64,000 nucleotides of DNA from Bryopsis sp. KO-2023 (lineage: Eukaryota; Chlorophyta; Ulvophyceae; Bryopsidales; Bryopsidaceae), in contig BSYQ01000002.1 of the NCBI GenBank assembly GCA_030272585.1, positions 4,712,001-4,776,000 on the forward strand, written 5' to 3'. The number at the start of each line of letters is the position of its first letter. Positions within the stretch are counted from its first letter, which is position 1. Below, in pieces: positions 1 to 22,150 of the stretch. The translations under genes were made by a program, and so were the position numbers. Under the pieces are notes generated by a model that did not search any database, was not told where the DNA came from, and saw only the letters and a program-made list of their open reading frames with translations.

Positions 1-25
1 CACTAAAACCTACAGGGGCCTAACA
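1..25 (+). repeat. 3' end of the 5' LTR of element 1
   Basis: These 25 bases, ending CCTAACA, repeat exactly at 9702-9726, the end of the 3' LTR. The rest of the LTR lies off the window. Confidence 0.9.
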
Positions 26-27
26 AC

Positions 28-45
28 TGGTTTCGGAGCCGAAGC
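28..45 (+). promoter_or_regulatory. primer-binding site of element 1
   Basis: TGGTTTCGGAGCC begins two bases after the LTR end. The usual plant-type initiator-Met tRNA primer site is TGGTATCAGAGC, so this is a near match with two differences. It begins with TGG, the complement of the tRNA CCA end. The priming tRNA is inferred, not proven. Confidence 0.6.
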
Positions 46-522
46 ACCCTTCCTGCAAGTCGAGTCTACTTAGTGGAAGAGATCGACAGGAGATTTTGCA
101 GTCGAGGTGCAAAAGATCAGGGTCGGCTAGGTCGAAGAAGGTTTCCCCTCGTGTCTGGAACCTACTTCGTGTTGCTGCGCACCAACCAAACGCTGGACGA
201 ACGAGAACGCACGTTGCTGCGCTCGATCATCCCTCCCAAAATCACAGGATCTATAGATCCTTGGACGCTACGACCACAGCACGGCGTAGTAGTACTTCCG
301 TTTGTCGGAGAGTTGTCGGCACGCGGTTACCGCAGAGCGGACAAAACGAGTCTGCCAGCGGACGTTTCTGCGGACGAATACGTTTCCGCCAGAAATTACG
401 TGCCAGAAACCGCTGCCAGAAACCGCTGACAAAGAGTGACCAATTAGTCACGTGGATTACCCGCCAACGGAATCCACCAAACGGACACGTGATTCTACCG
501 CCGACGAATCAAGACATCCACC
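46..522 (+). other. 5' leader of element 1
   Basis: This stretch lies between the primer-binding site and the gag ATG. Short open frames run on both strands, but none shows family features or continues into gag. It is read as untranslated leader, probably with the packaging signal. Confidence 0.6.
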
Positions 523-3489
523 ATGAGCGGACACGACGAGCAGCTATACCTGGAATACGGTATCGAAGACAATCAGCAAGAGCGCGACGCCCCAGATGGC
601 CCGCCGCTATATCCGCTGATCGTCGCCCAGGAATTACCTGCTGTCGGACTGCCGATACAGGCAGAAATGGACCAGCCTTTACAGGCATACGGTGTCCCCG
701 CGCACCCGGACATGGTGGAGGAAGCAGGCGATGAGGAAGCGGACATTGGCCCGGAGTTTGATGAGGAGATGGAAGAAGAGCCAGGAGTCTTCATCAATCA
801 ACAAACGCAGCACCTGCAACAGAGCCAAGTAAACGTGCATAACCAGACCCTGCACGTGCACAACGATGGCCTGCAGGAGCGCGACCTCCATGAATCGCAA
901 GAGCGGTTATACAGCCAATTGTCCGAGGAGGCTGCCCAGCGGACAGCCCAGGTCGCCGAGCACCTTGATAGTCGGATGGAGGGAGCTTGTTCAAGCATGG
1001 CTTCCCAAGTACATGATGTGTTGGACTCTACTCTACAGTCCCGCCATCACCAGATCGAAGGACAGCTCAGTGAGAGGTTGGATGAGCGGATACAAGATCT
1101 GGATGCTGCAGCCAAGGGGAGGCTCAGCCAAATGGAAGCTGGCTTGGCGAATATCCGTGATGTCGCCCAGAAAGAGGTGGACGAAGCCAAAGAGGCTCAG
1201 CGGATATTGGCTGAACAAGTGGCTGACACGGACGAAAAAAGGAAGAAACTCGAAGAAGAGTATGACCGGCAATATAACGACGCCCTTTGGGGGTTGGATA
1301 CGGTTCAACAAGAACTGAGAGAGACCCAGGCAGAACTGGATGCGGGTCAAGATAAACAGTTCAAGGAAATCGCTCATGTTAAGTATGATCTCAAAGAGAC
1401 GCAAGAAAAAGCGGAAAGTTTTCAGATACAGCATCATGCGGAAGTAGCCTATTTGTTAAAGGAGGCAGCGGCTGCGAAAGAAGCGGCGGCTAGATTACAA
1501 GCGGAAATGGAGGAGTTGAAAAGAAGTCAAAGTCGGTCTTCAAGGAGAAGCAGATCGAGAAGCTCAACAAGGAGCAGAGAGCCGCGGGAAATGCTACAAG
1601 AAATGCTACAAGATCCGGAAACAGCGCAAGAGCTAAAGAAGGTGTTTGAGGATGTAGCGGACACAAAGTTCACGTCGAATTTTGAGTTTTGGCGGAAGAA
1701 AGATGCTGCAGCAGTTGCCACACAAATGGCATCCGCTGCTCAACAAACACCTCTTGTGGCTGCTATGGCGGGAGCGGGAACCAGAACGGTGGCACAACCA
1801 CCAAGCTTGGCCGAAGTACAAGTTCCATTCGGTCAACCGCCCCAAACCTCATCCGGCTTTGCCCCGGATTCGGTAGGTTTCCCGCCATTACCACCAGTAT
1901 TCCCGCGGGCAAATAGACCGATTACCCGACCTGCATCACCCCCAGTCATTATTCCTGGAGTGGGGCGAGGCAGTGCAATCAGCGGACAGGGAAATGTACC
2001 TAGGCCGATCGTGAGGCCTAGCGCTGTGTTTGGACAAACACCAAATACAAGACCACCAGCGGTATTACAGCCAGTACAACCGCCACAGCGTACGCAGGCT
2101 TCTCCCGTGGTACAAACTGTTCCGCTGACAACTCCAACAACCACGTCACCCGAGCCACCTAGAACATTACCCATGCCACCACCAGTTTCTCAGCCAGTGT
2201 TATCACATCCATCAATGATTTCACCACCCGGCTATTATGCCATGGGAGCATCATACATTCGGCCTTCTATCTTAGGTCACTCCGTGAATGTATACGGAGC
2301 TCCATCATCCGGAAACCCCTATGTTGGATGGGGATCCTATCCGCGTATTCCTCAACGCGCAGGCGGAGGAGGCGGAGGAGGCGGAGGTGGAGATGATGAT
2401 GGTTCCGGTGATGGAAGTGGCGGAGGCCCATCGGACAGAAGTGGCCGTGGGTCTGCACCTGGACCACATATTGGTGGAGGAGGAGAAGGACCATCTAGGA
2501 ACCCAGGAGGCGGTCCTGGAGATGGTGGTGGTGGAGGTGGCGGAGGAGGCGGACCTCCTGGTCCCCCAGGTGGGGTCCCAGATTTTATGGGCTATGCACG
2601 TCCAGAAAATCGTTTGCTTCACATTCCCAATGCGGTCAAATTCCCGATGCCGAAACCGTATACTGGCGCTGGAGATCGCTGGATTCGGGATTGGCAGGCA
2701 GAACTCACCAACTTCTGTAAAGTTTATGATTTGGATGAGTCTGTTTGGCTTAAAGTATTCCGCACAAATCTCTCTGGTTCAGCCGCCACATGGCGGAATA
2801 TGCAAGAGATGCGGATTCGGGAAGGAGTTCGTCCGATGTTCCAGGACTGGGTACAACTTGTGGAAGAGTTAGCTATTGCTTTTGAACCTACAAGAATGTC
2901 CGATGTTTCGCGTAGGAAGCTGCGGAAACTTCAACAAACAGGGACTGTTCGTTCCTACATTAACGCATTTCGGGATCTCATACTCAGAATTCCGAATATG
3001 ACGGAGGAGGAGCAGTACTTGACGTTTGTTGACGGACTACGGCCCCAGATCCGACATCAAGTTGTTACAATGGTGACAGAAGGAGTGGAAGCGGCGATAG
3101 TCACTGCCGAAAGAATCGATTCGTTGGGAGGCCAATCTCAAAACAACCGCGGACGTGGTCGCGGACGAGGGCGATGGAACTGGAATTGGAAAAACAAGCC
3201 CAAAGCTGATCAGAACCAGCAAATGCAAGGTCAGCAACCGCAACCACCACCTCCACCCCAAGATCAAAATCAGCAAATGGGAGGAGGCAACAGAGGTGGC
3301 GGCGGCCGTGGCCGCGGAAGAGGCGGAAGACGAGGTGGCGGACGAAATCGAGGTGGTGGCGGAAGGCAGCAACAAGGCGGAGCTAGAGGCGGAGGCGCAT
3401 GTTACATCTGCGGTGAAGTGGGTCATGGCTTTGGAAAATGTCCTAAAGGCCCAACTTTTCAAAAATGGCTAAAAGATCACGCCGCATAG
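523..3489 (+). CDS. gag: Gag polyprotein with long coiled-coil N-terminus, element 1
   Basis: This 988-residue structural protein should form the virus-like particle and package element RNA. The ATG sits in a strong context (CCACCATGA). In order: an acidic N-terminus; a long charged coiled coil (about 115-345); an RS-rich stretch (about 336-356); a Pro/Gln-rich linker; two poly-Gly tracts (about 613-683); the retrotransposon Gag domain (about 715-850); an RGG/GRG-rich basic region (about 874-958); and one CCHC zinc knuckle, CYICGEVGHGFGKC (about 960-973). Most Ty3/gypsy Gags are a few hundred residues long, so roughly 700 N-terminal residues are extra. The RS and RGG parts suggest RNA binding, by inference. 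It overlaps pol by 25 bases in the -1 frame. Confidence 0.9.
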   Translation: MSGHDEQLYLEYGIEDNQQERDAPDGPPLYPLIVAQELPAVGLPIQAEMDQPLQAYGVPAHPDMVEEAGDEEADIGPEFDEEMEEEPGVFINQQTQHLQQSQVNVHNQTLHVHNDGLQERDLHESQERLYSQLSEEAAQRTAQVAEHLDSRMEGACSSMASQVHDVLDSTLQSRHHQIEGQLSERLDERIQDLDAAAKGRLSQMEAGLANIRDVAQKEVDEAKEAQRILAEQVADTDEKRKKLEEEYDRQYNDALWGLDTVQQELRETQAELDAGQDKQFKEIAHVKYDLKETQEKAESFQIQHHAEVAYLLKEAAAAKEAAARLQAEMEELKRSQSRSSRRSRSRSSTRSREPREMLQEMLQDPETAQELKKVFEDVADTKFTSNFEFWRKKDAAAVATQMASAAQQTPLVAAMAGAGTRTVAQPPSLAEVQVPFGQPPQTSSGFAPDSVGFPPLPPVFPRANRPITRPASPPVIIPGVGRGSAISGQGNVPRPIVRPSAVFGQTPNTRPPAVLQPVQPPQRTQASPVVQTVPLTTPTTTSPEPPRTLPMPPPVSQPVLSHPSMISPPGYYAMGASYIRPSILGHSVNVYGAPSSGNPYVGWGSYPRIPQRAGGGGGGGGGGDDDGSGDGSGGGPSDRSGRGSAPGPHIGGGGEGPSRNPGGGPGDGGGGGGGGGGPPGPPGGVPDFMGYARPENRLLHIPNAVKFPMPKPYTGAGDRWIRDWQAELTNFCKVYDLDESVWLKVFRTNLSGSAATWRNMQEMRIREGVRPMFQDWVQLVEELAIAFEPTRMSDVSRRKLRKLQQTGTVRSYINAFRDLILRIPNMTEEEQYLTFVDGLRPQIRHQVVTMVTEGVEAAIVTAERIDSLGGQSQNNRGRGRGRGRWNWNWKNKPKADQNQQMQGQQPQPPPPPQDQNQQMGGGNRGGGGRGRGRGGRRGGGRNRGGGGRQQQGGARGGGACYICGEVGHGFGKCPKGPTFQKWLKDHAA

Positions 3490-6400
3490 AGGAGACTTCA
3501 CTCCATGCGGCCAGAAGAAAAAGAGCCAGACGCCGAAGATATAGACATCGCAGACGTCAGAAGCTCCGGGAGTCACGAGCAAGAGAACGAGAGGGGAATA
3601 AAAAGACCGAGAAAGAGTCAAAAAGGAATCCCGCCCAGAGGGCTGAAAATCCGCTGATGAGTACAAAACTTGGTGACAAAGAGCGGATGGATGATTCAAG
3701 TACGGTCATCCTAAGCACTTCCGGCAGAGAGTTGGCGGAAAGTGTTGGTTCAGTACATGAAGATTCTGGAAGTTCCTCCGGAGATAGCAACCTGGAATCT
3801 ATCCCGCCTTGTGGAGAGAAACAGGCTTCGGAAGGAAGTGTAAAAAGTTTAGACCGGACCAGCCCAAGGGTTCCGTCTGACGCCGATGCAAGGGGGGCAT
3901 CGGACAGAAAGAAACAACCAGGGGTTGAAGGTGGGGATTACCTTCAAGACAGTTTTAACCCGCTGGTAAATAATCACCACCTTAAGTTCATGGGATATGA
4001 GCTTAAGGGGCGGATAGGGGGAGTTTCAATCTCCGCTTATTTGGACTGTGGAGCTACGGAAAATTATGTAGCGCAGAAACTTGTGGATCGTTTGGGGTTA
4101 GAGTTCTCCTCGTGTAATAAGACCGTTTCATTAGCCAACGGGTCTGTTTGCAATGTGGACAAACGATGCGGAAACATCAATATGCAGTTGGGCGGATACA
4201 AAACCCAGTTTTCTGCGGATGTTTTTCCTCATCTCACATATGACATCGTGTTAGGGTTACCGTGGCTCATCGCCAATAACCCGTCCATAGACTTTGCACA
4301 GGGAACTATCAACATTCGCCAAGGTCAAGGTTGGATAACAGTACCGGTAAAGGAAAGACCGACTGATTATCTTCAACTTGCGAATGAAACCACACCTCTC
4401 ATCACCCACAAGAAGATATTCCGCTACATCAAGAAGCAAACTGAAGCCACAGATAGTTTGGCTTACTTGGTGGTGGTGCGTGAATCTGACCCCACGGATA
4501 GCAATCACTTGATGCAATATCCGTATGAGGGGGTAACCGTTGATAGCCTTCAAACTTCAGCGGGCACCAACACACCACAAGAGACGGAGGTACCGAAGTT
4601 GCTGCATGATCAGATGCACCCGGATATCCGCTCTGTGGTGGAGGAATATAGCCACATTTTTCCAAAAGATCTCCCGCCTGGCATACCTCCCGTCCGCAAG
4701 GGTCATGAATTTAAGATCGACCTTGAGGATGAGAGTATGAGCCCAATCCACCGTCCCCTGTACAAACTTTCTCCGGCTGAATTGGATGAAGTTCGGACAC
4801 AAGTGGATTATCTCCTCGAGCAACGGAAGATTAGGCCGTCAGAGAGTCCCTGGGGAGCTCCCATACTCTTTGTCCCTAAGAAAGACGGCGGACTGCGGAT
4901 GTGTGTTGATTACAGATGGATCAACCACTACACCATTAAAAACCGCTATCCACTTCCGCTCCCCGAAGAGTTAATGGACCGGCTCGCTAAAGCAAAGATC
5001 TACACCAAGATCGACCTCCGCTCGGGCTACTGGCAATTTCCAGTCCGGCCAAAGGATACCCCAAAAACTGCATTCCGCACACGATACGGGCATTTCGAGT
5101 TCCTCGTTTGTCCCTTCGGAATGTCCAACTGTCCGGCCCAGTTTCAAACTATGGTGCAGGATTTGTTGGGGGAGTTTTTGGACCACTTTGTGGTTGTGTT
5201 CATTGACGACATTCTGGTGTTTTCCAATTCAGTGGAAGAACATGTCGATCATTTGAAACAGGTATTCGAGCGGTTACACAAACACAAGCTCTACGCGAAA
5301 GCGAGCAAGTGTGAAGTGGGGGTCAGCGAGACCGATTATCTGGGATATCATTTGTCAGGGAAAGGCCTGCAACCAATGAGTGATAAAGTGCGGGCTATTC
5401 AAGAATGGAAGGAGTTGAGCTCAGTTGGGGATGTGCGAAGTTTTCTGGGCATGGTATCTTACTATCGTAAGTTTATACCAGAGTTTGCGCGGATTGCAGG
5501 ACCCTTACATGATCTGATCAAAAAGAATCATGTGTGGACATGGGGGCCTATTCAGCGCGAAGCCTTCAGCAAACTCAAGCAAAAGATCACCCGCACCCCC
5601 ATACTTCTCCTACCCGATCCGCTTCTTAGGTACACCGTAATAACGGACGCATCAGGAACTGCATATGGAGCAGTTCTGTGTCAGGACCATGGAAAGGGGC
5701 TACAGCCAATAGCCTACCTTTCAAGACGACTAAAACCAGCTGAGACACGATATTCCGCATATGAGCGGGAGCTGGGGGCTGTAGCATATGCGCTCAGCCA
5801 ATGGCGGCATTACCTCGAAGGAGCGCCTGGGGAGGTTACGGTTATGACAGACCATCAGCCGATAACCCACTTCATGACCCAAGCTAAAATGTCGCGGACA
5901 CAATCCCGATGGTATACGTCAGGGTATTTTGATTCCATCGATCCAAAAATCGTCTATGTGCCTGGTAAAGCCAATGTACTGGCGGATGCGTTATCCCGAA
6001 GCCTTCCTGATTCACAGGATCAAATTCATGCTTTGTCCGCCTGGGTGGTGGATGAAGCGGATGCATGGAAGACCGCTATTGCGGCAGATCAAAAACTGCA
6101 AGCGGAAGTCGCGAAAATCCAAGAGGGTAAACCCACGAAACTTTCGTTCGAGGATGGCTGGTTGTACTATCAAGCAACTCCCACCTCAGACAAAGTACTA
6201 GTGGTTCCAAATGGATACCGGAAAAAGGTTATGGGGGAGTTCCATGATGTTCCGAGCGCTGGACACGCAGGTGCCGCCCGGACATCGGATGTGCTACAGC
6301 GATACTACTGGTGGAAAGGAGTTGGAAAGGATGTCCAAGCATACGTGCGGACATGCCCTGTCTGTCAGCGGACAAAAGCTGATACGACGAAGCAGAAAGG

Positions 6401-7574
6401 GCTTCTGCATCCACTCCCAATACCGACAACAAAGTGGGAACAGATCACCACTGACCTCGTGACTGATTTACCAAAGTCACGTGGGTTCACCGCCATCGCG
6501 GTATTTGTTGATCGGTTAACCAAGTACGTTCGCTTCGCACCCTGCACTAAGGAAATAACCGCCCCGGAATATGCTAAGTTGTTTGTGGACAAAATATACA
6601 AACACTATGGCCTCCCCAAAGTGATAATTTCCGATCGAGACCCCAGATTCACAAGTTCCTTCTGGCGGTCTTTATTTTCACTTCTGGGAACCCAACTCCG
6701 AATGAGCACAGCCTACCACCCACAAACAGATGGGCAGTCAGAGGTTACTATTCGGGTGTTGGAAGACTTTTTGCGGCCTTATGTGGAGCGGTATCCAGAC
6801 CGCTGGGTTGATTTCTTGGCGACAGCGGAATTTGCTGCCAACAACTCCCGCAATGTGTCAACCGGCTATGCCCCAGCACACTTGTTGTATGGGCAGCATA
6901 TGGGACAAATTACCGTGCAGAAAAAGTTAACGGCGAAAGAAGAGTCCGAAATGGCAACCGAAATGGTGAAACGAATGGACGAGCAACTGCAGCAGGCAAA
7001 GCAGCAGTATGCAACCGCACAAGAGCGGATGTGTGTCCAAGCGAACAAACGGCGGCGGGAAGTAATCTTCAAAGAAGGGGATGAAGTTTTGGTGCGGAGT
7101 ACATTTATTCCGCTGCAATCCTTGCAAAAGATCCCACCAAAAATCCGCCGGAGGTTTGTCGGGCCATTCAAAGTGAACAAAGCGATATCCACAGTCGCTT
7201 ATCGCCTGCAACTACCACCCCATTGGACTATTCATTCTACCTTCCATGTCTCCAAGCTGAAGGCATACAACCGCTTGTCAAAAGATGATGAGCGGGAGGT
7301 GGAACCTCCCGAAGGGGAGTTGGTGGATGGCGCCATTGAATATGAGGTCGAGCGTATTCTGCGGGATCGAGGCACACCCAACCGTCGGGAGTACTTGATT
7401 CTGTGGAAGGGCTATGATTTGATGGAAGCCACCTGGGAGCCAGAAGCCCACCTGGCCAATGCCAGCGATATCTTGGCAGAGTATCTCAGAAACCGCACGC
7501 GCTTGCCGACCAAAGAGGAAATCCGCTCTAAGCGGAAAGAAAGGCGGACAAGGCGGCGGAAACAACCTCTTTAG
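3465..7574 (+). CDS. pol: Pol polyprotein (protease, RT, RNase H, integrase, chromodomain), element 1
   Basis: This 1369-residue polyprotein copies and integrates the element. Visible landmarks: aspartic protease with the unusual active-site triplet DCG (about 193) where DTG/DSG is usual; reverse transcriptase with FIDDIL (about 579); RNase H with TDASG (about 727); integrase zinc-binding HHCC ending CPVC (about 965); the integrase acidic triad in TTDLVTDLP, ISDRD and DGQSE (about 995, 1056, 1090); and a C-terminal chromodomain with LILWKGYDLMEATWEP (about 1292-1332) that in chromoviruses steers insertion to marked chromatin. Its ATG lies within the end of gag in a good context (AAAAATGG), 25 bases before the gag stop. 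I see no canonical slippery heptamer in the gag frame, so restart at the overlapping ATG is as likely as frameshifting. No internal stops. Confidence 0.95.
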   Translation: MAKRSRRIEETSLHAARRKRARRRRYRHRRRQKLRESRAREREGNKKTEKESKRNPAQRAENPLMSTKLGDKERMDDSSTVILSTSGRELAESVGSVHEDSGSSSGDSNLESIPPCGEKQASEGSVKSLDRTSPRVPSDADARGASDRKKQPGVEGGDYLQDSFNPLVNNHHLKFMGYELKGRIGGVSISAYLDCGATENYVAQKLVDRLGLEFSSCNKTVSLANGSVCNVDKRCGNINMQLGGYKTQFSADVFPHLTYDIVLGLPWLIANNPSIDFAQGTINIRQGQGWITVPVKERPTDYLQLANETTPLITHKKIFRYIKKQTEATDSLAYLVVVRESDPTDSNHLMQYPYEGVTVDSLQTSAGTNTPQETEVPKLLHDQMHPDIRSVVEEYSHIFPKDLPPGIPPVRKGHEFKIDLEDESMSPIHRPLYKLSPAELDEVRTQVDYLLEQRKIRPSESPWGAPILFVPKKDGGLRMCVDYRWINHYTIKNRYPLPLPEELMDRLAKAKIYTKIDLRSGYWQFPVRPKDTPKTAFRTRYGHFEFLVCPFGMSNCPAQFQTMVQDLLGEFLDHFVVVFIDDILVFSNSVEEHVDHLKQVFERLHKHKLYAKASKCEVGVSETDYLGYHLSGKGLQPMSDKVRAIQEWKELSSVGDVRSFLGMVSYYRKFIPEFARIAGPLHDLIKKNHVWTWGPIQREAFSKLKQKITRTPILLLPDPLLRYTVITDASGTAYGAVLCQDHGKGLQPIAYLSRRLKPAETRYSAYERELGAVAYALSQWRHYLEGAPGEVTVMTDHQPITHFMTQAKMSRTQSRWYTSGYFDSIDPKIVYVPGKANVLADALSRSLPDSQDQIHALSAWVVDEADAWKTAIAADQKLQAEVAKIQEGKPTKLSFEDGWLYYQATPTSDKVLVVPNGYRKKVMGEFHDVPSAGHAGAARTSDVLQRYYWWKGVGKDVQAYVRTCPVCQRTKADTTKQKGLLHPLPIPTTKWEQITTDLVTDLPKSRGFTAIAVFVDRLTKYVRFAPCTKEITAPEYAKLFVDKIYKHYGLPKVIISDRDPRFTSSFWRSLFSLLGTQLRMSTAYHPQTDGQSEVTIRVLEDFLRPYVERYPDRWVDFLATAEFAANNSRNVSTGYAPAHLLYGQHMGQITVQKKLTAKEESEMATEMVKRMDEQLQQAKQQYATAQERMCVQANKRRREVIFKEGDEVLVRSTFIPLQSLQKIPPKIRRRFVGPFKVNKAISTVAYRLQLPPHWTIHSTFHVSKLKAYNRLSKDDEREVEPPEGELVDGAIEYEVERILRDRGTPNRREYLILWKGYDLMEATWEPEAHLANASDILAEYLRNRTRLPTKEEIRSKRKERRTRRRKQPL

Positions 7575-7895
7575 ATGATACAGGTTGATATGGGGAAGGG
7601 AACGATGGTTGATGTGTTGGTATCAGTTCACCCATAATCAAATACATCTAAGAGCGAGCTACAGAGAGCTGAGTCAAGATAGCGAGGGTAATATCAAAGC
7701 GGGCTAGAACCTTGGATGAGACGACACTCAATAGAGGAAGTCTTCCATCAGTGACAAGTGAGTGACTCTATCACTTGTATAAACTAGCTAGGCTGCAACC
7801 CTCCAGCCCTATTTCGTCAAAAGTTTACGCCGAGCGCACTGAACCTTCAGAAGCAACCGCCACCAGAGCAAAACATTAAACGCATTTGCATAAAA
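7575..7895 (+). other. spacer between pol and third ORF of element 1
   Basis: These 321 bases carry no credible ORF. They could hold a splice acceptor or promoter for the downstream ORF, but I see no clear signal. Confidence 0.5.
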
Positions 7896-9407
7896 ATGTC
7901 TGGAACATCCGAGCATTTGGAGCGACTCCGTCAGCAGAGGGATGAGTGGAAAACAAAGGCAGAGGCCTTGGAAACGGAGCTCGCGGAAGCCTTAGAATCT
8001 GGAACTGAGGCGGTGGAATCACATGCAAATGTGGCGGCGGATTACGAAAAATTACACAAGAAGCTTCAGGAGGGTGTGACAAAAAGAGATGAGCAGGAGG
8101 CGGAAATCTGTGAGCTGGCGGCGGAACTCCGGGAAGCAAAAGAGGAAAGGGCGGCGGAAAAAACTAAGCTGGAGGCGGATTGGACCAATCGATACCGGGC
8201 TCTTCAACAGCAGTTGAGTGATGCTCAAGTGAAAGCCCGCGGTGCGGAAGCGGAACTCAAGACTATCAAAAGAGAGTTATCCGCGCAAGAGGAAGAAAAT
8301 TCCGCAAAGGATCAAGTAATTTCCGCGCGGAATCAAGAAATTTCCGCGAAAGCCAAGGAAATTACCCAGCTGACCACCGATCTGGCCCTCTCCCGGAAAA
8401 CAGCCACCAAAGCTCAGGCGGATACCGAATGGTATCACAAGGAGAATAAGCAGCTCATCAGTGAGGCGGAGAAACGCTACCGCAACCTCGTCACGGTCCA
8501 AAAAGAGTTGGCGGCCACAAAAGCAGCTCTCGCCAGGGCGGAAAAGGGAGACGACTTCTGCAGCAGCACGACCGCCCGGGTGTTGATGTCAGAACTCGTC
8601 GCGTCCAAAGTTGAGGTCAACCGGCTTCGGGCCAACCTCATGGACATTCCGCAGTCACTCGCGAGTTTCTCACACGGACTCGTGGGAGTACGGCTGGATA
8701 CCGCGAAGGCGCAGGCGCAGTTGGTGCGAGACGGCCGGATAAAAGATCAGGTCGATATGCATAAGGTCAAGGAGATCACCATCACGAACGTGGACCTTAC
8801 GAAGGCGCACAATTTGGACCAAGTGAACGACTGGTTGAGCCGGATAGACGGGGCAGCGGAGAATATCTCAAAGCAATTGGCGAAACCACCCCAGAGTTCC
8901 CTTGACGATGACGACAACGAAGACGTCATAGCGGAAGAACCGACAGGTTCAAAACCACCGCTGAGCGCGGAGGACACACAAACAAAAGCACTCGTCAAAG
9001 CAGCAATGCTCAAAGCACTCGCGGAGGCGGATGCGGAGAAAAAGAAAGCAGCCGCGGAGAAAAAGGCGGCCGCGGAAAAACAAAAAGCGGACGCGGAGAA
9101 AACACACGCGGAGAAAAAGGCGGCTGCGGAAAAACAAAAGGCGGACGCGGGAAAAACACACGCGGACGCGGGAAAACAAAAGAAGGCGGACGCGGAGAAA
9201 AAGACAACCGCCGAAACCAAGAAAGGGGAGCCGTCGACTCAGGCGGATGCGGAAAAAGTGAAGGAAGCGGAAAAAAAGGGCGCGGAGAAAAGCACCAAGC
9301 GGGGGAAGAAACGCACACGCGCGAAGGACGCGAAAGAGCTGCGTGCAGCGCTCAAGAAGATTAAAGGCACGCACGATCCAGCACTCGCGGGCTCGGAGAC
9401 AGAGTGA
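7896..9407 (+). CDS. additional coiled-coil ORF downstream of pol, element 1
   Basis: This 503-residue highly charged protein has no recognised enzymatic domain. Residues about 1-215 are heptad-like and rich in Glu, Lys and Ala. A less charged middle (about 220-330) follows. A Lys/Ala/Glu low-complexity tail (about 365-470) repeats AEKKAAAEKQKADAEK-like units, and a basic RGKKRTRAK patch lies near the C-terminus. There is no signal peptide or membrane segment, so it is not an envelope protein although it occupies the env position. GCGGA-rich codon use matches gag and pol, which argues that it belongs to the element and is not a captured neighbour. Its coiled coil echoes that of the long Gag, so a Gag-interacting or RNA-binding role is possible but unproven. 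Confidence 0.75.
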   Translation: MSGTSEHLERLRQQRDEWKTKAEALETELAEALESGTEAVESHANVAADYEKLHKKLQEGVTKRDEQEAEICELAAELREAKEERAAEKTKLEADWTNRYRALQQQLSDAQVKARGAEAELKTIKRELSAQEEENSAKDQVISARNQEISAKAKEITQLTTDLALSRKTATKAQADTEWYHKENKQLISEAEKRYRNLVTVQKELAATKAALARAEKGDDFCSSTTARVLMSELVASKVEVNRLRANLMDIPQSLASFSHGLVGVRLDTAKAQAQLVRDGRIKDQVDMHKVKEITITNVDLTKAHNLDQVNDWLSRIDGAAENISKQLAKPPQSSLDDDDNEDVIAEEPTGSKPPLSAEDTQTKALVKAAMLKALAEADAEKKKAAAEKKAAAEKQKADAEKTHAEKKAAAEKQKADAGKTHADAGKQKKADAEKKTTAETKKGEPSTQADAEKVKEAEKKGAEKSTKRGKKRTRAKDAKELRAALKKIKGTHDPALAGSETE

Positions 9408-9527
9408 GCGAGAGCGGAGCCAGAGCCAGAGAGTCAGAGCCGGACAGAGACAGTTTTTCCTTGGGGGTTTTCTTTTCTTTTCTTTTCTTTTTCTTTCTTT
9501 TTGGGTTCTTCTACGGGTGTGGACACC

Positions 9528-9551
9528 CTTTGGGGGGGGGGGGGGGAGTAG
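9528..9551 (+). other. polypurine tract of element 1
   Basis: A run of about 15 G followed by AG lies directly before the 3' LTR, where plus-strand DNA synthesis is primed. A nearly pure G tract is unusual. A polypyrimidine stretch at 9448-9512 precedes it. Confidence 0.6.
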
Positions 9552-9552
9552 T

Positions 9553-9726
9553 TGATACGTTGTCGCACTCATTTTGCAGTACGAGTGTGTAGTACGGGTT
9601 AGTACGGGTTCTAGGGGGTTAAGTTCAGAGAGACCACCTTGTAAAATTAATTCTCTGGTTTGTAGTGTGTGTGACCCCAGTCTCAGACTCAGCAACGACT
9701 TCACTAAAACCTACAGGGGCCTAACA
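9553..9726 (+). repeat. 3' LTR of element 1 (174 bp)
   Basis: The LTR starts TGATACG and ends CTAACA, giving TG...CA ends. Its last 25 bases equal bases 1-25. At 174 bp it is short for a Ty3/gypsy element. Element 2 has the same TGATAC start, so the two share LTR edge sequence. Confidence 0.8.
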
Positions 9727-9728
9727 GG

Positions 9729-10394
9729 TTATCCTGTTTTCAGTCACATCTCCAGGGAGATGCACTTAGCTGGTTAAACTTGATGGACATACAGATCATG
9801 AATCAGGAAAAGGCAGAGTATGCTAGCTGGCAAGAGTTCACTCAAGAACTAAGGAATGTTTTTGAGCCAGTCTCCCTAATAGAGACTGCCAGAAAACAGT
9901 TAAGAACTCTAAGGCAGACTGGAACTGCCTTGGGCTACATCAGACTCTTCAGAAAGCTGATGTTTAGACTCCCTAACCTACCTCAAGAAGAAAGGTATGC
10001 TGCCTTTGTGGATGGGCTAGCAGATAGGAATATGCAAGCACAGGTTATGACCCTGTGTGATGGAGATCTGGATAAGGCCATCCTCACAGTCCAAAGACTC
10101 TCTGCAACTATAGGCAGTAGAGGTGGCACTACTAGTAGTTTTAGAGGCAGAGGTAGAGGGAGAGGAAGATTTGGACAGAGAAATACACAGATGTCAGCAA
10201 TGATGTCTGCTGCAACATCACCACTGCCTCCTGCAGCAAATTCAGTTAAGGCTGTGCAGCAGAGAGGTCAGATGGGATCTAGGCCCTCAAGGGGAGGATC
10301 CTTTAAGTGTTTTCTATGTGGAAGCACAGAGCATGGGGTGAGACAGTGTCCCAAACTGTCCCAAGCTCAGAAAGCCCTGAAGAAGGGAAACTAA
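9729..10394 (+). pseudogene. gag: Gag C-terminal part of element 2, interrupted by element 1
   Basis: The open frame enters from the insertion point and reads a Gag core (QGDALSWL, then a FEP...RQTGT...GYIRLF segment parallel to the Gag domain of element 1). An RG-rich stretch (GRGRGRGRF) follows, then a CCHC knuckle CFLCGSTEHGVRQC, and a TAA stop. No ATG precedes the core here; a TTG occupies 9780. The N-terminal part is presumably upstream of element 1, so the gene is broken by insertion, not by decay. Confidence 0.85.
10385..10391 (+). promoter_or_regulatory. -1 ribosomal frameshift slippery heptamer GGGAAAC
   Basis: The gag codons here read G GGA AAC followed at once by the TAA stop (10392-10394), fitting the X XXY YYZ rule exactly. 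Slipping back one base gives GGG AAA CTA, which is the pol frame (10385 is in phase with the 1289-residue pol frame). GGGAAAC is an established retroviral-type slippery sequence. Downstream structure was not computed. Confidence 0.8.
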
Positions 10395-13300
10395 AAGAGG
10401 AGGCTAGTGTTGGGTCAGCTAAGCCTCCAGATGATATTGAAATGAAAGAACCCACTACAAAAACACCAGCCTCACTAAATGATGGTGTTCAAGAGACACC
10501 TGTGGTTGCAGCCCCTATTGCAACAGAACAGGAAGCATACACACTGGATGGGGTCACTCCAGGAGTGTTAATTCAAAAGAAAAAGCAGTCTCAAAAGAGA
10601 GTGGATAAACAAACAGAGGCCACTGTGAGTTTACCCACTAGAGTGGAAGGAAATGTTGAGGGAAAGGAACCAGTTCAGACTGCAGTAGCTCAGGCTACAG
10701 CAGCATATAGAGGATATGAACTGGCAGGATTTATTGGTGCAAAGAAAGCTACAGCATACATTGATACAGGATCCACTGCTAATTATATTAGCATGGATGC
10801 AGTCAAGGAACTGGGACTGCAATACAAACCACAAGAAACTCCTGTTAAGTTTCTAGATGGTACAGAAAGGAAATCAGTGGGGAGATGTTTTGGCATCCCA
10901 TTTGTCTGTGGAAAGATCCAGCTCTCATTTGATGCTGATGTCTTTCCAGACAGTAATCACCCAATCCTGCTGGGATTGCCCTGGCTCATACACTACAATC
11001 CCAAAGTGGATTTTAAGTCAGGAATAATCACAGTCAACAAGGGCAAAAAGAGTGTAAAATTACCACTCTCAGTGATGCCTGAATATCAGCTCAAACCCAC
11101 TGGAGCTACAGAACTTTCCTTTTGTTCTAGTGGCAGAATCAAAAGACAGATAGAAAAAGGGGAAATCAAACACATCATCATGGTGGTGATTAGGCCAGAG
11201 GATGAATCAAAGACTGGAGTAGAAACAATCCCAGAACAAAGGGAAGGGGATGATCTACAGAAAATCCTGCAGGAGGATATGGATCCCAGGATTAAAGAAG
11301 TACTGACTCAGTACAGAAAAGTGTTTGCAAAGGATTTGCCTAAGGGTGTACCTCCTGTCAGACTGGGTCATGAATTCAGGATTGATCTGGAGGAGGGTAC
11401 AGAACCCATGTATAGACCCCTATACAAACTGTCTCCTCTTGAGTTAGATGAGGTTAAAAGACAGTTAGATTACCTGTTGGAGATGGATTTCATAGAACCA
11501 TCACAGTCACCCTTTGGGGCACCAATCCTGTTTGTCCCTAAGAAAGATGGAGGGCTCAGGATGTGCCTGGATTACAGATGGCTCAACAAGAAAACCATCA
11601 AAAACAGATACCCTCTGCCCTTACCAGAGGAGATGATAGACAGGGTACATGGGGCAAAATATTTCACTAAGATTGACCTGAGATCAGGCTACTGGCAGAT
11701 GCCTCTAAGGGAAGAGGACAGGCCTAAGACTGCCTTTAGAAGCAGATTTGGACACTATCAGTTCAAAGTGCTTTCATTTGGACTTACTAATGCTCCAGCA
11801 CAATATATGAACATGGTGAATGACATATTCAAGGATATGTTGGATTTATTTGTGCTGATCTTCATTGATGACCTTCTGATCTATTCCAGAAGCATCTCTG
11901 AGCATGTAGAACATCTGGCAGCAGTCTTAGCCAGGCTGCAGAAGTATAGTTTATTTGCAAAAGCCACCAAAAGTGAAATCTGTGTGAAGGAAACAGATTT
12001 CTGTGGGTTCTGGCTAAGTGAAAAGGGGATCTCAGCAATGGATGTGAAAGTTAAGGCAATCAGGGATTGGAAGCCCTTAAAGACAGTTACAGATGTCAGG
12101 AGTTTTCTGGGGATGGTTTCCTTCTATAGGAGATTCATCCCAGACTTTGCAAAGATAGCAGGCCCTCTGCATGACTTAACTAAAAAGGATGTCATGTGGG
12201 AATGGGGATCTGCTCAGGAGAAATCTTTCCAGACTTTGAAAAATGCATTGATGAGGAAACCAGTGCTGATCCATCCTAATCCAGTGAAAGATTACACTGT
12301 TATTAGTGATGCATCTGGGGAGGCAACTGGTGGAGTCCTCTGTCAGGATCATGGCTCTGGATTACAGCCCATAGCCTTTTGCAGTAGAAGATTATCAAAG
12401 TCAGAACAGAACTACTCAGTCTATGAAAGGGAATTACTAGGGATAGCCTACTGTTTGATGCAGTGGAGGCATTATTTAGAAGGCTGCCCAGGACTGGTTA
12501 CAGTCTTTACTGATCACCAGCCATTAACAAACTTCATGGATCAGAAGATGATGTCAAGACCCCAAGCCAGGTGGCTCAGGGCAGGACATTTCCTCAGCAT
12601 CAAACCAAAGATTCAGTACATCCAGGGAAAACTGAATCTGGTTGCTGATGCACTATCAAGAAGTCTTCCAGCAGAGCAGGAAGTGAAAGTAATAAGTTCC
12701 TTACAGCCTAGCACAGAAGAGATTACACTCTGGGAACAAGCAACACTGGCAGATGTTGAAATCAAAGACATCTACAATCAAATACTGGATGGAGAGAGAA
12801 TTCCAGGATATGGAATCAATGAATCAGGGTTATTGATTTATCAAACTCAGGATGGACTTATGAAATTATGGGTTCCTCAGGAACTGAGAATGAAAGTCCT
12901 TACTGAAGGACATGATAATCAGATTTCAGGACATCTGGGGATAGAGAGAACTCTGGAGCTGATGTCCAGGAAATACTACTGGAATGATATGAAAAAGGAT
13001 GTCCAGGAATATGTCAGGACATGTGAGGTTTGCCAGCAAATGAAGCCTGAGTTGAGAGCTCAGAAAGGCTTGCTGCAACCTATTCCAGTAGCTGATAGGA
13101 AATGGGATCAGATCACCACTGATCTAGTGACTGATTTACCCCCTGTGGATGGGTTTGATTCAATTGCAGTGTTTGTTGATAGATTGACTAAGATGGTAAA
13201 GTTTATACCCTGCAGCAAAACAATAGATGCACCAGGGTATGCAAGGATATTCTTTGATTACATCTTCAGGAATCATGGGATTCCCAGTGTGATAATCAGT

Positions 13301-14176
13301 GATAGAGATACTAGATTTGCTAGTAAATTTTGGCAGGAGCTAATGAGATGTGTGGGCACTAAAGTGAGAATGTCCACAGCCTTCCATCCTCAAACAGATG
13401 GACAAAGTGAAGTCAGCATTAGAACACTAGAAAATTTCCTTAGACCCTATGTGGAAGAGCATCCAGAGACATGGATGCAGGGATTAGGGATGGCTGAATT
13501 TGCAGCCAATAATGCTGTCCACACATCTACAGGATACAGCCCCTTCTACTTAATGTATGGGGTACATCCTCAGCTGCCAGGAGATCTACTGGCTGGAAAA
13601 GCTCAAGCTGAAGCAGAATCAGTGCAAGAGATGATATCTCATATGCAGGAAATCATCAATGATGCCAAGGACAGATATAAAACAGCCCAAGAGAAGATGA
13701 GGCAGCAAGCAAATAAAAGGAGAAGGGATGTACAGTTTCAAGTGGGAGAAAAGGTGTTGCTCTCCACAAAGACATTGAATTTATCAGTCTTGAAACATAT
13801 TCCAGTAAAAATCAGAAGAAGATATATAGGACCTTTTGTTATTGCTGCTGCAGTGGGATCTGTGGCATATAGATTGGTGTTACCAGATGGATGGAAATTA
13901 CATCCTGTATTTCATGTATCAAAGTTGAGAAAACTTCAGGAAAGCTCTAAGTTTCCTAGGGAGGTAATGGCACCTCCAGCAGAATTAGATTCTGAGGGAG
14001 AAGAGGAATTTGAAGTTGAGGCTGTAGTAAGACATAAGTTTTCAGGAAGAAAAAGGAGATTTTTAGTAGTCTGGAAGGGGTATCCACTTAGTGAAGCAAC
14101 CTGGGAACCCCAAGACAATTTATTGAATGCATCAGAGATCCTAGCTGATTATAAGAGGAGAGCTGGGATCAGGTAG
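10385..14176 (+). CDS. pol: Pol polyprotein (protease, RT, RNase H, integrase, chromodomain), element 2
   Basis: An open frame of about 1260 residues from the frameshift site encodes the full replication and integration set. Landmarks: protease DTG (about 126); RT with FIDDLLIYS (about 492); RNase H TDASG-equivalent SDASG; integrase zinc finger ending CEVC; core motifs TTDLVTDLP, ISDRD and DGQSE; and a chromodomain with FLVVWKGYPLSEATWEP (about 1207-1247). The order and many blocks match element 1, so they are related families. Arginine is written only with AGA/AGG and no codon or codon junction forms CG. That is striking in an intact frame of this length. Confidence 0.95.
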   Translation, partial: GKLKEEASVGSAKPPDDIEMKEPTTKTPASLNDGVQETPVVAAPIATEQEAYTLDGVTPGVLIQKKKQSQKRVDKQTEATVSLPTRVEGNVEGKEPVQTAVAQATAAYRGYELAGFIGAKKATAYIDTGSTANYISMDAVKELGLQYKPQETPVKFLDGTERKSVGRCFGIPFVCGKIQLSFDADVFPDSNHPILLGLPWLIHYNPKVDFKSGIITVNKGKKSVKLPLSVMPEYQLKPTGATELSFCSSGRIKRQIEKGEIKHIIMVVIRPEDESKTGVETIPEQREGDDLQKILQEDMDPRIKEVLTQYRKVFAKDLPKGVPPVRLGHEFRIDLEEGTEPMYRPLYKLSPLELDEVKRQLDYLLEMDFIEPSQSPFGAPILFVPKKDGGLRMCLDYRWLNKKTIKNRYPLPLPEEMIDRVHGAKYFTKIDLRSGYWQMPLREEDRPKTAFRSRFGHYQFKVLSFGLTNAPAQYMNMVNDIFKDMLDLFVLIFIDDLLIYSRSISEHVEHLAAVLARLQKYSLFAKATKSEICVKETDFCGFWLSEKGISAMDVKVKAIRDWKPLKTVTDVRSFLGMVSFYRRFIPDFAKIAGPLHDLTKKDVMWEWGSAQEKSFQTLKNALMRKPVLIHPNPVKDYTVISDASGEATGGVLCQDHGSGLQPIAFCSRRLSKSEQNYSVYERELLGIAYCLMQWRHYLEGCPGLVTVFTDHQPLTNFMDQKMMSRPQARWLRAGHFLSIKPKIQYIQGKLNLVADALSRSLPAEQEVKVISSLQPSTEEITLWEQATLADVEIKDIYNQILDGERIPGYGINESGLLIYQTQDGLMKLWVPQELRMKVLTEGHDNQISGHLGIERTLELMSRKYYWNDMKKDVQEYVRTCEVCQQMKPELRAQKGLLQPIPVADRKWDQITTDLVTDLPPVDGFDSIAVFVDRLTKMVKFIPCSKTIDAPGYARIFFDYIFRNHGIPSVIISDRDTRFASKFWQELMRCVGTKVRMSTAFHPQTDGQSEVSIRTLENFLRPYVEEHPETWMQGLGMAEFAANNAVHTSTGYSPFYLMYGVHPQLPGDLLAGKAQAEAESVQEMISHMQEIINDAKDRYKTAQEKMRQQANKRRRDVQFQVGEKVLLSTKTLNLSVLKHIPVKIRRRYIGPFVIAAAVGSVAYRLVLPDGWKLHPVFHVSKLRKLQESSKFPREVMAPPAELDSEGEEEFEVEAVVRHKFSGRKRRFLVVWKGYPLSEATWEPQDNLLNASEILADYKRRAGIR

Positions 14177-14432
14177 AAGTTAGATGCACTTTTTATTCTG
14201 TGGCTGATGGATCAGGAATCCCAGAGGCTAGGGGATGGGTTGCATAAGGGCAGTGAAGTGTTTTCTGAACTTCTGTGGGTTAAGGATTTTATGGGGATCT
14301 AATTATCCCATCAGAAGGGCAGCAAGCTTGGGATTTGCAGCACCCTAGTTCAGAGTTACTTTTACAGAATCAAAAGGATGCATGTGATGGATACTTGGTG
14401 AGGGCACCAACTGCCCCCAGGGGGGAGGCAAT
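14177..14432 (+). other. 3' untranslated region and polypurine tract of element 2
   Basis: There is no ORF. The final CCCCCAGGGGGGAGGCAA (14414-14431) holds the polypurine tract directly before the LTR. It is CpG-free like the coding region. Confidence 0.7.
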
Positions 14433-14945
14433 TGATACCAGCTGCTGACGTCCAGGGACGTCAGACGTCAAAGGCGTCATGCATCTGACGTCTGTGAAGC
14501 GTCAGATGCATCCCCGGTGAATGACAGCATCCTCCCAAGGAGGTACTACTGAACTACAGCGAGGAAACCATCGCAAGAGCACAGAGTCAAGACAATGGTT
14601 CGATCAATCAGATTGGGACTTGCGAGACTGAGGTCCTGGGTTCGAGTCTGAGTGGGAACGTGCTTCGGTTTGGGCCTGTGTGTGAGTGTGTGAGTGAGTC
14701 AGGAGTAGAACTGGCGGCTGTGAGTCAGGGTAGTGGGAGTGTTACGGGTGGTTAGTCACCCTCGGGAAAGTCGAACTGGGAGTTAAAGGATGGGACGCTT
14801 GATGTAACCTTGCTTTTCAGTGATCTGTTTGTGTGACCCCGAGTCTGTGACCCGTGCGATTTTGTGTGACCGTTCCGCCGCCGCCTCACTCTTTCCCGAG
14901 ATAGGAGACGTCGCTCGCGGACGTCAGTCCTCCCGAGCGATAACA
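14433..14945 (+). repeat. 3' LTR of element 2 (about 513 bp)
   Basis: It starts TGATACCAGC after the polypurine tract and probably ends at CGATAACA, giving TG...CA ends like element 1. The end is inferred because the 5' LTR is out of view. It is CpG-rich (about 34), in sharp contrast to the internal region. It contains a tRNA-like GGTTCGAGTC at 14639-14648 that I do not consider a tRNA. Confidence 0.7.
14444..14512 (+). promoter_or_regulatory. cluster of TGACGTC (CRE/bZIP-like) motifs in the LTR
   Basis: Within about 70 bases there are several GACGTC or GCGTC words, some as TGACGTC, with TGCATCTGACG and CGTCAGATGCA forming a dyad. Another GACGTCAGTC lies at 14930. TGACGTCA is the classic bZIP/CREB site. 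A role as promoter or enhancer of element 2 is inferred. Confidence 0.45.
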
Positions 14946-16001: not shown

Positions 16002-17054
16002 TCACAACCCCTTAGAAAAGTCCCACTCCAAAATTTCCCCATTGCCACCAACAACCACCATCTTTTCACCTTCAAACCATGCCACTGGCACATGGTTTTC
16101 TTCAACATGGTCCCTATCGTACGAACAATCAAAACCTCACACACACACACACTCGCCCTTGGTCGTATCCCATATTTTCATCGTACCATCATAAGATCCC
16201 GTGAACATCCGACCTTCTTTGACAACGACAGAGTTCACAACATCTGTGTGACCTCGAAAAGTTTGCACGTGCTGGCCGCTTTCAAAGTCCCACGAGCGAA
16301 TGTTGCCATCAAAAGCTCCACAAAAGATCAGCCCATCAGAAACACTCATAGAGCATACTCCCTCTTCCCCACGAATCATTCGAAGGCAAGCATTATCGAC
16401 TAAGTTCCATATTCGTACAGTCTCGTCGCTTGACCCACTGATCAAGAGGTTGCCTGGTTTGAACAAGAGGCAAGTAACATCATTTTTGTGACCTTGAAGC
16501 GATCCAACCTGCTCCCATACCCCTTTCCTCCAAATTTGAAGTTTCCCATGATAACCCCCAACGGCCACGTTGTCGCCAAGGTCCGCAATCGATGAGATAA
16601 GGGTATAGAAAATCGAGACGCAAAAAAGCTTTTTCCAGGTGGAGATATCCCATCCACAAAGATCACCTATGATGTTCCCGGTCACAAGCATCCTATCCAT
16701 AAAAGAGAGACTATACACCAAGACGATCTTCTCACTGTCAAAAATAAACTCTTTTCGATCCAAATCAAACACCTTGAAGTTTTCATAACCACTCAGAACA
16801 ATCAAATTTTTCATCTTGGCACTCCGAAACGTGGTAGAATGATTTTGAGTGTGAACAGTGGGCTCTATTGCTTCATGCAACCAAGCACGCTCCAAATCGA
16901 TTTTCCTTTTCAAGGACGATTCCTTCTTTGTAACTTCTCGCCAAGATGTGGCCACACAAGAGCATCTAGCGAGTGATACAACAGGAATCCTTCCAAGAAT
17001 GTCGACCAAGACATGCCACGGCAAGTTCCATTCGACCCGTTTGCGGCCGCTCAT
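16002..17054 (-). pseudogene. F-box/WD40 gene A, C-terminus frameshifted by a (GT)n run
   Basis: The start is the ATG at 17054-17052. The N-terminal F-box (LPWHVLVDILGRIPVVSLA...CVATSWREV) would bind SKP1. WD40 repeats follow, with GH...WD cores such as GSSDETVRIWN and GSYDGTMKIWD, and would form a substrate-binding propeller of an SCF ubiquitin ligase. The open frame is 305 residues and stops at 16137 inside a (TG)n run (16139-16152). The homologous end VVGG...ILEWDFSKGL is still present in another frame down to 16002, as comparison with gene C shows. A change in dinucleotide repeat number has therefore cut off about 45 residues. It appears intronless. It could still make a shortened protein; I call it a pseudogene with moderate confidence. 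Confidence 0.75.
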
Positions 17055-18060
17055 GGTAGCGTCCTTAATTCGAAGAAACGGTCAATCATTTAGTCAATGA
17101 CCGCTGCGCTATGTAAAAAACAATGCTCTCCAAAGCAAGAATTACTTGCAGAGCGCGTAAGTCTTTTCAAGAAAAAAAACGATCGGTGGCCCACAGACTG
17201 TGGGGACACCCAGCACCAGCAAGGGCAAAACAAGGCAATGTTCCCCCTCCTTCCCCGCGTTGCTGATTCAAAAGTAGGACGACTAAAGCCGGGCGGGAAA
17301 AAGCAAGAAAAAAGTTGGTCGAACTTTCTTAATGAGACCACTGAAACCAAACTTCCCAGTAGTAACCCGCTTTGCACTTGTCAAACCGTCCGCTCCGCTA
17401 AAATTGAGAACAGCGTAGGCGAAAAACCTACGCCTAAGAGATAACGCCGAGCAAACCCACCTGTGTGAGTGAGGTAGTCCGATATCAAAAAAGTTTCCGG
17501 TAGAAGGAGGGACTCGATTGTCAAAAAAAGCTGTTTGTGGGCTGCGATCGCACCTTTTTTGAACTGCGGCGGCGGTGTTGTCGGATTGATCGACGTTGAT
17601 GATTCGACAAGTCGACAGAGGGTCAGGGTCAATCTCTTCTCCAGTGAGTGGAAGAGTGACGACCCTTTTTCCCTCTTCTGTCAATTGACCCTTTTTCCTT
17701 AGAGTGAGATGGATGGCGTCGAGAGAAACCAGAGGTACATCGGCCTGGTGTCGGCTTTTTTTTTTCCACGCGCGTGCGTTGGGGGGGTTCTGAGTCAGAA
17801 CTTCTGACTCTAGCGCAAGCGCGAATCTTTCTACTGACGGGATGTCGGTATTACATCCTGCCACTCCTTTTCGAGGCGATTAGGACGAAGCCATCCAAGG
17901 GTTGCCGGATTTGGAGTGCGACCGTTTGCTGCAGATCCAGTATGGCAGAGCTGCTGTTGCTCCCTGAAGGCGCTCGTGGAGGGACTTACCAGCTGGCTGG
18001 AAATATGATGAACCTGGGGTGCGACGTTTGAACGAAAGCTTGTCGCAAAAAAGGGTATTG
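17055..18060 (-). repeat. upstream segment of gene A, duplicated inverted at about 34.0-34.8 kb
   Basis: The reverse complement matches the DNA upstream of gene C in order, including TTGTCGAATCATC, AATCCGACAACACCGCCGCC, GGAAACGTTTTTGATATCAG and the hairpin at 17413-17433 (GCGTAGG, seven-base loop, CCTACGC; also at 34409-34429). A 193-residue minus-strand frame (17864-17283) crosses it but does not hold in the other copy. I treat it as promoter and 5' flank carried with the gene. Confidence 0.6.
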
Positions 18061-19065: not shown

Positions 19066-20165
19066 AGAATTAGTAGAAAAGAAGCTTCGTTCATATTTTT
19101 AGAAAAAAAGGATAAAGGGATTCCTAGTGGGCAAGACTTTTTTCCTTCTCGAAATTCATTTCTTTTTTAAATTCATGCTTGCAAGCTACTTTCACTTCTT
19201 TGTGTTCCAGTGGACCCTTAAACAAAATAAAGATGACTAAAAGGAATCCTTGAAAATAAAAAGGAGCCCAAATATATCAGAGTCGCTGGAACTTTTTTTG
19301 TGTCTGATACAGTCGATTGGCTTTAATTGAAACACACACACATGGACAATGATGTGGTTTTTTTTTAAATCCATCACATGTGGAACCCTTCCCTTTCTTT
19401 CTTTCTTTCTTTTTTTTTTTCTTTCCTTTTCTTTCTTTCTGGATGTAGCTTTTGACATCCAGAAGACTGATTCTGCCAACCTCTCCCCCCCTTGAAAAGA
19501 AAATTAAGAAGAACACAAAGAAATCAGCGATGGTTGAATTTCTGGACTCTAGAAAAACCCAAGAAATTTAAAGAAATGGATGGACCACCATGCACCTGGT
19601 ATCCCAAATGAAGACGGAGAAAAATGAAGCTAAAATTTTTTTTCCTAATGGCCTTAGGGTTCAAATGCCAATAGCTGCTTCCCCCTTCTCAGAAAAGAAA
19701 TGTTGAAAAGGGACCTCAGCAGTGGATCAAGAGTTGAAGCTAGGAGCAGCAAGCTTGATTGTATTTTTTCCGTCACTCCCCTTTCAGAATCTGAATGATT
19801 TCGTATTTTCAGTCAGTGGCAAAGCTGGGGGGAGAGAAAAAGAGTGAGAGACTAATGGGTTGGTCACAGAATGCAACACGAAGTGAGACAGCAAAGGGGG
19901 GAGTTGTTTTGGTTTAAAATTCAGACTTGTGAATAAGAAACATGGAAAATCCTTTCTTCTGTAGAGACAAAAAACAGGAAACAAAATTGGTTGCAACTTT
20001 TTTTGTAGAAAGTTGAAGAGTTGATAGGTTGTACAATAATAATCTCATTGCGGACTTATCGAAAGTGGGAGAAAAAACTGTTGTGTGGAGTTGGAGAGTT
20101 GTACAAAAAAAACAATCGAATTTCTGTGAAGTGGGAGACAAAAATGTTGGCTGGCAGAATAGAGT
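19066..20165 (-). repeat. remainder of the left duplication arm, with R1 copy 2
   Basis: The reverse complement follows 32130-33130 in the same order. At 19780-20160 it carries R1 sequence (GGCAGAATAGAGTGAGA, GAAAGTGGGAGAAAAA, GAGTGAGAGACTAATGGG). A polypyrimidine run lies at 19391-19440. No gene. Confidence 0.6.
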
Positions 20166-20173
20166 GAGAAACC

Positions 20174-21840: not shown

Positions 21841-22150
21841 AGCCCAGCCAGCCCCCAACCAGCCCACAACCGGCCCAACCGGCCCAACCAGCCCAACCAG
21901 CCCAAACAGCCCAGACAGTCCAAACTGCCCAAACTTGTGAACGCAACAAAGCCGTATTTGTTTCACGAACGAAAGGTTTCTTGTATTTTGCAATTTTGTC
22001 TCCGAACGTCGATTGCAACAGAATAAAAACACCAGTTCCAACGGGAAAACAAAACCAAAACCAAAACCAGAACTTGTGAACGCAACTAAGGCGTATTTGT
22101 TTTCCGAACGAAACGTTTCTTGTATTTTTGTGGTAGAAAGGAATTCAGTC
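21841..22150. repeat. left minisatellite flank, inverted copy of 37.08-37.38 kb
   Basis: It contains a CCAGCCCAACCAGCC-type degenerate repeat, then ACAAATACGGCTTTG-like, AACACCAGTTCCAAC and AAACCAAAACC sequences. These appear reverse-complemented at 37090-37340. The flank and the minisatellite were therefore copied together. Confidence 0.7.

Follow-up and report, generated by a model that had tools for sequence, protein, structure and literature searches.

It is an open question whether transposons escape DNA methylation through their base composition, and the question is raised by a locus of the green alga Bryopsis sp. KO-2023 (Bryopsidales, Ulvophyceae), the genome of which comprises 91 Mb in 28 contigs. 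The window analyzed here is a 64,000-nt stretch of contig BSYQ01000002.1 (positions 4,712,001 to 4,776,000; assembly GCA_030272585.1), in which a retrotransposon termed element 2 is interrupted by another, element 1, and in which the body of element 2 downstream of the insertion lacks CpG dinucleotides while its long terminal repeat (LTR) is rich in them. The signal is a clean one, as a single genome holds a multi-copy and mostly open family with a body CpG observed/expected ratio (o/e) of 0.003 and a CpG-rich putative promoter, a half-depleted sister family, and outgroup families of normal CpG content. A natural CpG-free sequence under strong constraint also allows a test of silencing by a single CpG. 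Bryopsis sp. KO-2023 is maintained in long-term culture according to PMC12509668, so its methylation is directly readable.

A retrotransposon body without CpG

The initial annotation of the window reported no CpG in about 4.7 kb of element 2, and a direct count confirms this observation: there are 0 CpGs within positions 9727-14447 (4,721 nt), for which base composition predicts 218.6. The flanking CpGs of this run lie at 9696 and 14449, and the 29 terminal nucleotides of element 1's LTR also fall inside it, element 2 resuming at 9727. Other long CpG-free runs in the window measure ~1.9 kb (a tandem array) and then 0.75 kb. TpG and CpA, which the annotation proposed for comparison, are both in excess over 9727-14447 (o/e 1.28 and 1.41, respectively), and GpC is near normal (0.93). 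The parts of the two elements are arranged as follows.

9727..14432, + strand: body of element 2 3' of the element 1 insertion (gag remainder, pol, 3' untranslated region (UTR), polypurine stretch), with 0 CpG, delimited by the LTR and insertion borders
9727..10394, + strand: element 2 gag remainder with the Retrotrans_gag capsid domain (open reading frame (ORF) 9708-10394; PF03732, E 1.2e-12)
10307..14176, + strand: element 2 pol, encoding protease, reverse transcriptase (RT), RNase H, integrase and chromodomain, 1,289 open codons (from the ORF and Pfam)
14177..14432, + strand: element 2 3' UTR, untranslated and CpG-free
14433..14945, + strand: element 2 3' LTR, 513 bp with 34 CpGs and TG...CA ends, followed by the target duplicate ATTTT
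L009:7285-7797 (C2:4709285-4709797), outside the window: element 2 5' LTR, 513 bp
1..9726, + strand: element 1, a CpG-containing chromovirus inserted in the gag of element 2, with target duplicate GGTTA
LTRs of element 1: 5' LTR from L009:9852 to window position 25, 3' LTR at 9553-9726

Judged by its predicted domains, element 2 is a chromovirus (Ty3/Gypsy) split by element 1. The Pfam domains of gag capsid, protease, RT, RNase H and integrase follow one another in Ty3 order (9708-10394, 10307-14176), a chromodomain stands at the C-terminus of the integrase (PF00385, residues 1235-1285, E 5.3e-13), and in the pol/gag overlap of the ORF list pol lies in the -1 frame. The two LTRs differ at 1 position in 516. 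The sequence TGGTTTCGGAGCC is located 4 nt past the 5' LTR, the position of a candidate primer binding site, with no tRNA matched to it. Element 2 thus shares with chromoviruses the order of protease, RT, RNase H, integrase and chromodomain, the TG...CA LTR ends and a 5-bp target duplication, but differs from them by a nearly CpG-free body next to a CpG-rich LTR and leader; among the titles and starts of abstracts listed in a literature search, with subscription papers outside its scope, none described a chromovirus of this composition. The initial annotation had also described element 1 as CpG-rich and the pol of element 2 as open, and both descriptions hold: element 1 pol has 214 CpGs (o/e 0.84), and the 1,289 codons of element 2 pol run without interruption. 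Element 1 carries in addition a 539-aa ORF between pol and its 3' LTR (window 7788-9407), which has an internal repeat and no Pfam match.

Codon preference alone is ruled out as the source of the pattern. Arginine, said earlier to be always AGA or AGG, is so encoded at 74/74 positions of pol; in gag, full copies have two CGA codons. Random recoding of the pol protein with the codon usage of element 1 gave 166-239 CpGs in 1,000 trials, and reshuffling of pol's own synonymous codons gave 45-77, against an actual count of 0. Codon junctions also are without CpG, as is the 3' UTR (14177-14433), for which 12.9 are expected. Because these junctions and the 3' UTR are CpG-free and the leader and 5' part of gag are CpG-rich, it is position, not coding, that decides CpG content.

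The CpG-rich zone

The 34 CpGs of the 513-bp LTR were counted as first annotated, but the CpG-rich zone is wider than first stated: besides the LTR it takes in the leader and the initial 52 nt of gag, both of which lie in L009, upstream of the window. Of its 76 CpGs, 68 precede the gag ATG (at element nt ~985) and 8 fall within those 52 nt, and past this point only isolated CpGs occur. The two-part map is present in all six full elements read, and in the five full elements other than element 2 the 5.1 kb running to the start of the 3' LTR hold 0 CpG. Gag CGA codons persist at nt 328 in 6/6 and at nt 1186 in 5/6 full elements, with element 2 carrying a gag CGA at nt 1033 in place of nt 1186. 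Among the six full elements, one encodes a shortened gag (330/748 aa), and the gag of the window copy is separately split by element 1.

The LTR bears six GACGTC motifs, which we take to resemble bZIP/CRE sites. In each replication cycle, the parental 3' LTR is the template for the U3 region of the daughter element, and the retention of CpGs there implies either that the 3' LTR is shielded or that its CpGs are needed. The LTR, leader and gag start may form an unmethylated CpG-island-like promoter, which would explain why 76 CpGs are kept, some of them within the six GACGTC motifs, where a factor may bind. The position of the transcription start, the unmethylated state of the LTR and the binding of the motifs by a factor are presumptions of this scheme.

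Copies of the family

A nucleotide query of 1.4 kb taken from pol returned 436 first-look candidates, 40 of which were scored (93-100% identity). The copies read are the best 30 of these 40, the window copy included, and therefore the closest ones; 4 of the 29 other copies align only in part. Together the 30 copies contain 17 body CpGs, where 5,839 are expected (o/e 0.0029), and a normal CpG content is found in 0/30. The aligned stretch is without CpG in 16 of the 29 other copies and contains one or two in the remaining 13. The 'complete absence' described earlier accordingly holds for the 4.7-kb span, but not for the whole coding region, given the two gag CGA codons of full copies, nor as a trait of every family member.

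In-frame stops in aligned pol number 0 in the 29 other copies, three of which have frameshifting indels, leaving pol open over the aligned part in 27/30. An RT protein search listed 78 places with 97-100% aa identity, including two partial ones, and five further places, at 87-89%, that form a sister group; no stops lie inside the listed RT stretches of either group, and the length of the open frame varies. The two LTRs of a copy differ by 0-1 nt in all 15 pairs read, which marks these copies as recent, and the family is recently active in Bryopsis sp. KO-2023. Three copies in C5:6064850-6104050 (L016-L018, L042, L089-L092) are identical over the body read and have in common one private LTR-pair difference, which suggests duplication of the locus.

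Relatives were sought in viral and prokaryote contigs, and none was found there; a protein search with an unnamed host ORF likewise returned none. Among 120 listed of 5,313 protein matches, the nearest reach no more than 56% aa identity over the full query and 58-60% over 79% of it. Two chromovirus proteins (P0018, P0023) are labelled as belonging to Marinobacter and Parasphingorhabdus metagenome-assembled genomes with tags ending in 2KO; their sequence probably comes from the alga and was binned together with bacteria of the culture.

Gain and loss of CpG as copies diverge

Substitutions were counted between the window copy and the 29 others, pooled, so that related rows are not independent. 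Changes of T to C at TpG, which would create CpG, occur at 1/9,208 sites, against 499/19,587 for T before other bases, and changes of A to G at CpA occur at 8/10,050 sites, against 916/28,772 elsewhere. For changes shared among copies in pol, 25 rows were used after five rows lying 0-2 nt from another over the shared part were dropped; one near-identical group is represented by a partial row. Shared synonymous changes amount to 0/623 of those possible if CpG-creating and 268/1,877 if not, and one further shared change at a CpG-creating site gives no CpG in its carriers. Shared amino-acid changes number 47/8,482. The distribution over the tree is uneven as well: CpG-creating changes in pol number 8/115 on tips and 0/390 on deeper branches together with L036, the most divergent copy, which was set apart from the tips (Fisher 6e-6). 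New CpGs arise in single copies and hardly ever spread.

Related families in the same genome

The loss of CpG is graded across relatives. The sister family (L052; RT stretches L071-L073), the pol of which is 74% aa identical to that of element 2, has a pol o/e of 0.32; it resembles element 2 in its CpG-poor pol and in becoming CpG-richer towards both ends of the locus, but differs by its 60 pol CpGs, and its LTRs were not identified in the stretch fetched. In the outgroup families L053 and L054, pol CpG o/e is 0.84 and 0.87. L053 reads CGN at 33 codons that are AGR in element 2, a difference beyond single deaminations, though the distance between the two is large. Among 20 further RT stretches, the three of the sister family range from 0.35 to 0.39, the three of a family C from 0.38 to 0.44 and the other 14 from 0.76 to 1.25, and an o/e of 0 occurs in none. 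Family C (L059, L061, L062) offers a milder likeness, with a CpG-depleted but not CpG-null RT that belongs, judged by residues, to a lineage other than that of element 2. One of its copies (L093, read downstream of pol only) has a CpG cluster downstream of pol that may be its LTR.

Other host DNA is not similarly CpG-null, with o/e values of 0.66-1.15 for the measured stretches of the window and its surroundings. In the sequence fetched, neither of the two findings that the initial annotation named as refuting its reading turned up. The open pol of 27/30 copies, the failure of new CpGs to spread and the graded loss in relatives bear out the initial view of a pattern that is long-term and maintained, not one of recent decay. 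The argument first offered for it, the stop codons that decay should have introduced, does not settle the matter by itself, as damaged copies would leave no offspring; a stronger one comes from the absence of synonymous CpGs common to several copies, combined with the weak CpG hypermutability seen elsewhere in the genome.

Selection or mutation

The explanation we favour, at close to an even chance, is that purifying selection, probably against silencing by CpG methylation, keeps the body of element 2 CpG-free, with the LTR and leader acting as an island-like promoter. The data support the selection part in some measure. No pol CpGs are shared, CpG hypermutability elsewhere is weak and two gag CGA codons persist, and on these grounds selection is preferred; on the best reading, it acts against body CpG about as strongly as on the protein. 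The selected body would begin near codon 18 of gag and end at the 3' LTR, and a copy gaining a CpG in it would leave few or no descendants. As to the agent, a search of the genome for DNA methyltransferases gave six exon-type matches at two loci, DNMT1 being matched by a piece from one locus (E 3e-40) and Dnmt2 by a piece from the second (E 1e-14). The DNMT1-type enzyme of the host is the likely agent, and it would methylate and silence copies with methylable sites in the body. A search for TET/JBP gave no match, nor did its controls. In Chlorella, CG methylation is described in PMC9861306 as low near transcription starts and filling gene bodies. In a fuller and more tentative form, somewhat short of an even chance, element 2 would represent a methylation-proof family with two opposite CpG compartments: a body invisible to the host methyltransferase, from which CpGs are excluded save for the two gag codons and in the pol of which a silent CpG is tolerated no better than an amino-acid change, and a promoter held open as an island.

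Several points weigh against selection. Selection so strong on one added CpG in 5 kb would be surprising. In families whose RT CpG o/e is 0.76-1.25, long open frames are found in many copies, so that carrying CpG in the body does not in general prevent spread in this genome. On the tips, 5 synonymous CpG-creating changes stand against ~18 expected by our arithmetic, a depletion compatible both with rapid loss by mutation and with selection, and outside pol a gag CpG at 10219 is common to 5 close copies. The copies compared are, moreover, the closest ones, and what is said of methylation and expression comes from DNA sequence only.

Mutation alone might suffice if methylated body CpGs deaminated too fast to last, with selection maintaining only the protein and with LTR and leader spared because unmethylated. 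We regard this as rather unlikely, although the TpG and CpA excess of the body and the shortage of new CpGs on tips both agree with it. By our estimate, CpGs would have to be lost at a rate on the order of 100 times background or higher to give a body o/e of 0.003. In old repeats within and beside the window, CpG transitions number 84/277 against 438/2,983 elsewhere, a mild excess of ~2-fold in the direction expected of mutation (pooled over 22 listed pairs that are partly redundant, a few being listed twice, and that include a gene family, a tandem array and two stretches of element 1 versus element 2). In 30 LTRs of the family, variable columns are 7/68 at CpG and 10/213 at other C/G positions; across the 15 LTR pairs there are 8 differences, 4 of them at CpG, and three of these reflect a single change present in three duplicated copies. 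In six other groups of transposable elements, the ratio of CpG to other transitions is 4.0 or less in 45/48 pairs and 4.2-8.6 in the remaining 3, with one or two CpG changes each. Ordinary decay of 5-methylcytosine thus looks insufficient. A path through CpG would also leave a two-step signature, and over all sites shared changes show it, with A to T before G at 8/455 versus 9/982 and T to A after C at 8/266 versus 9/790; at four-fold sites, however, the excess is gone (5/93 versus 7/117 and 7/96 versus 3/35, respectively). Finally, extreme mutability should have erased the gag CGA codons at nt 328 and nt 1186. Repeat-induced point mutation or another methylation-driven decay of repeats has in common with the body of element 2 its CpG loss and TpG/CpA excess, but here pol is open in 27/30, LTR CpGs are kept, the host is a green alga, and other high-copy families keep their CpG; the LTRs and other repeats do not have the C-to-T excess typical of such a process, as no strong excess of CpG transitions is found in other multi-copy families.

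Two further explanations are improbable. CpG might be avoided at the level of RNA or through a CpG-binding protein unrelated to methylation, such as a sensor that degrades transcripts. The CpG-free zone does coincide with the 3' UTR and the greater part of the coding region; however, the RNA would also contain the CpG-rich leader and whatever portion of the 3' LTR is transcribed, and we know of no sensor degrading CpG-bearing transcripts in algae, though no dedicated search was made. To about the same slight degree, it is conceivable that CpGs were purged in another host, that the element then invaded Bryopsis recently and that CpG exclusion is now over. Such a history would account for pol CpGs being confined to tips and for the recent age of the copies, with LTR pairs 0-1 nt apart. 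Against it stand the presence in the same genome of the sister family, RT 87-89% aa identical and milder in its bias, and the lack of a near relative among the protein matches listed.

Other features of the window

Copies of F-box/WD40 and WD40 genes at 16137-17081, 25455-26309 and 34935-35852 apparently represent an expanded host gene family, and five Bryopsis sp. KO-2023 proteins are 61-75% identical to an F-box/WD40 ORF of the window. The 1.9-kb CpG-free run lies at 37357-39276 within a tandem array of ~70-bp units, and an inverted relative of the 37.4-39.0 kb array is found at 20089-21971 as an array of alternating 70- and 67-bp spacing with strong GC skew. A LINE-type ORF with endonuclease and RT (28595-31855) has a CpG o/e of 0.75-1.01 over its kilobases. 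Long imperfect palindromes occupy 59358-59809 and 62691-62975, matching their own reverse complements at ~92% and ~82%, respectively.

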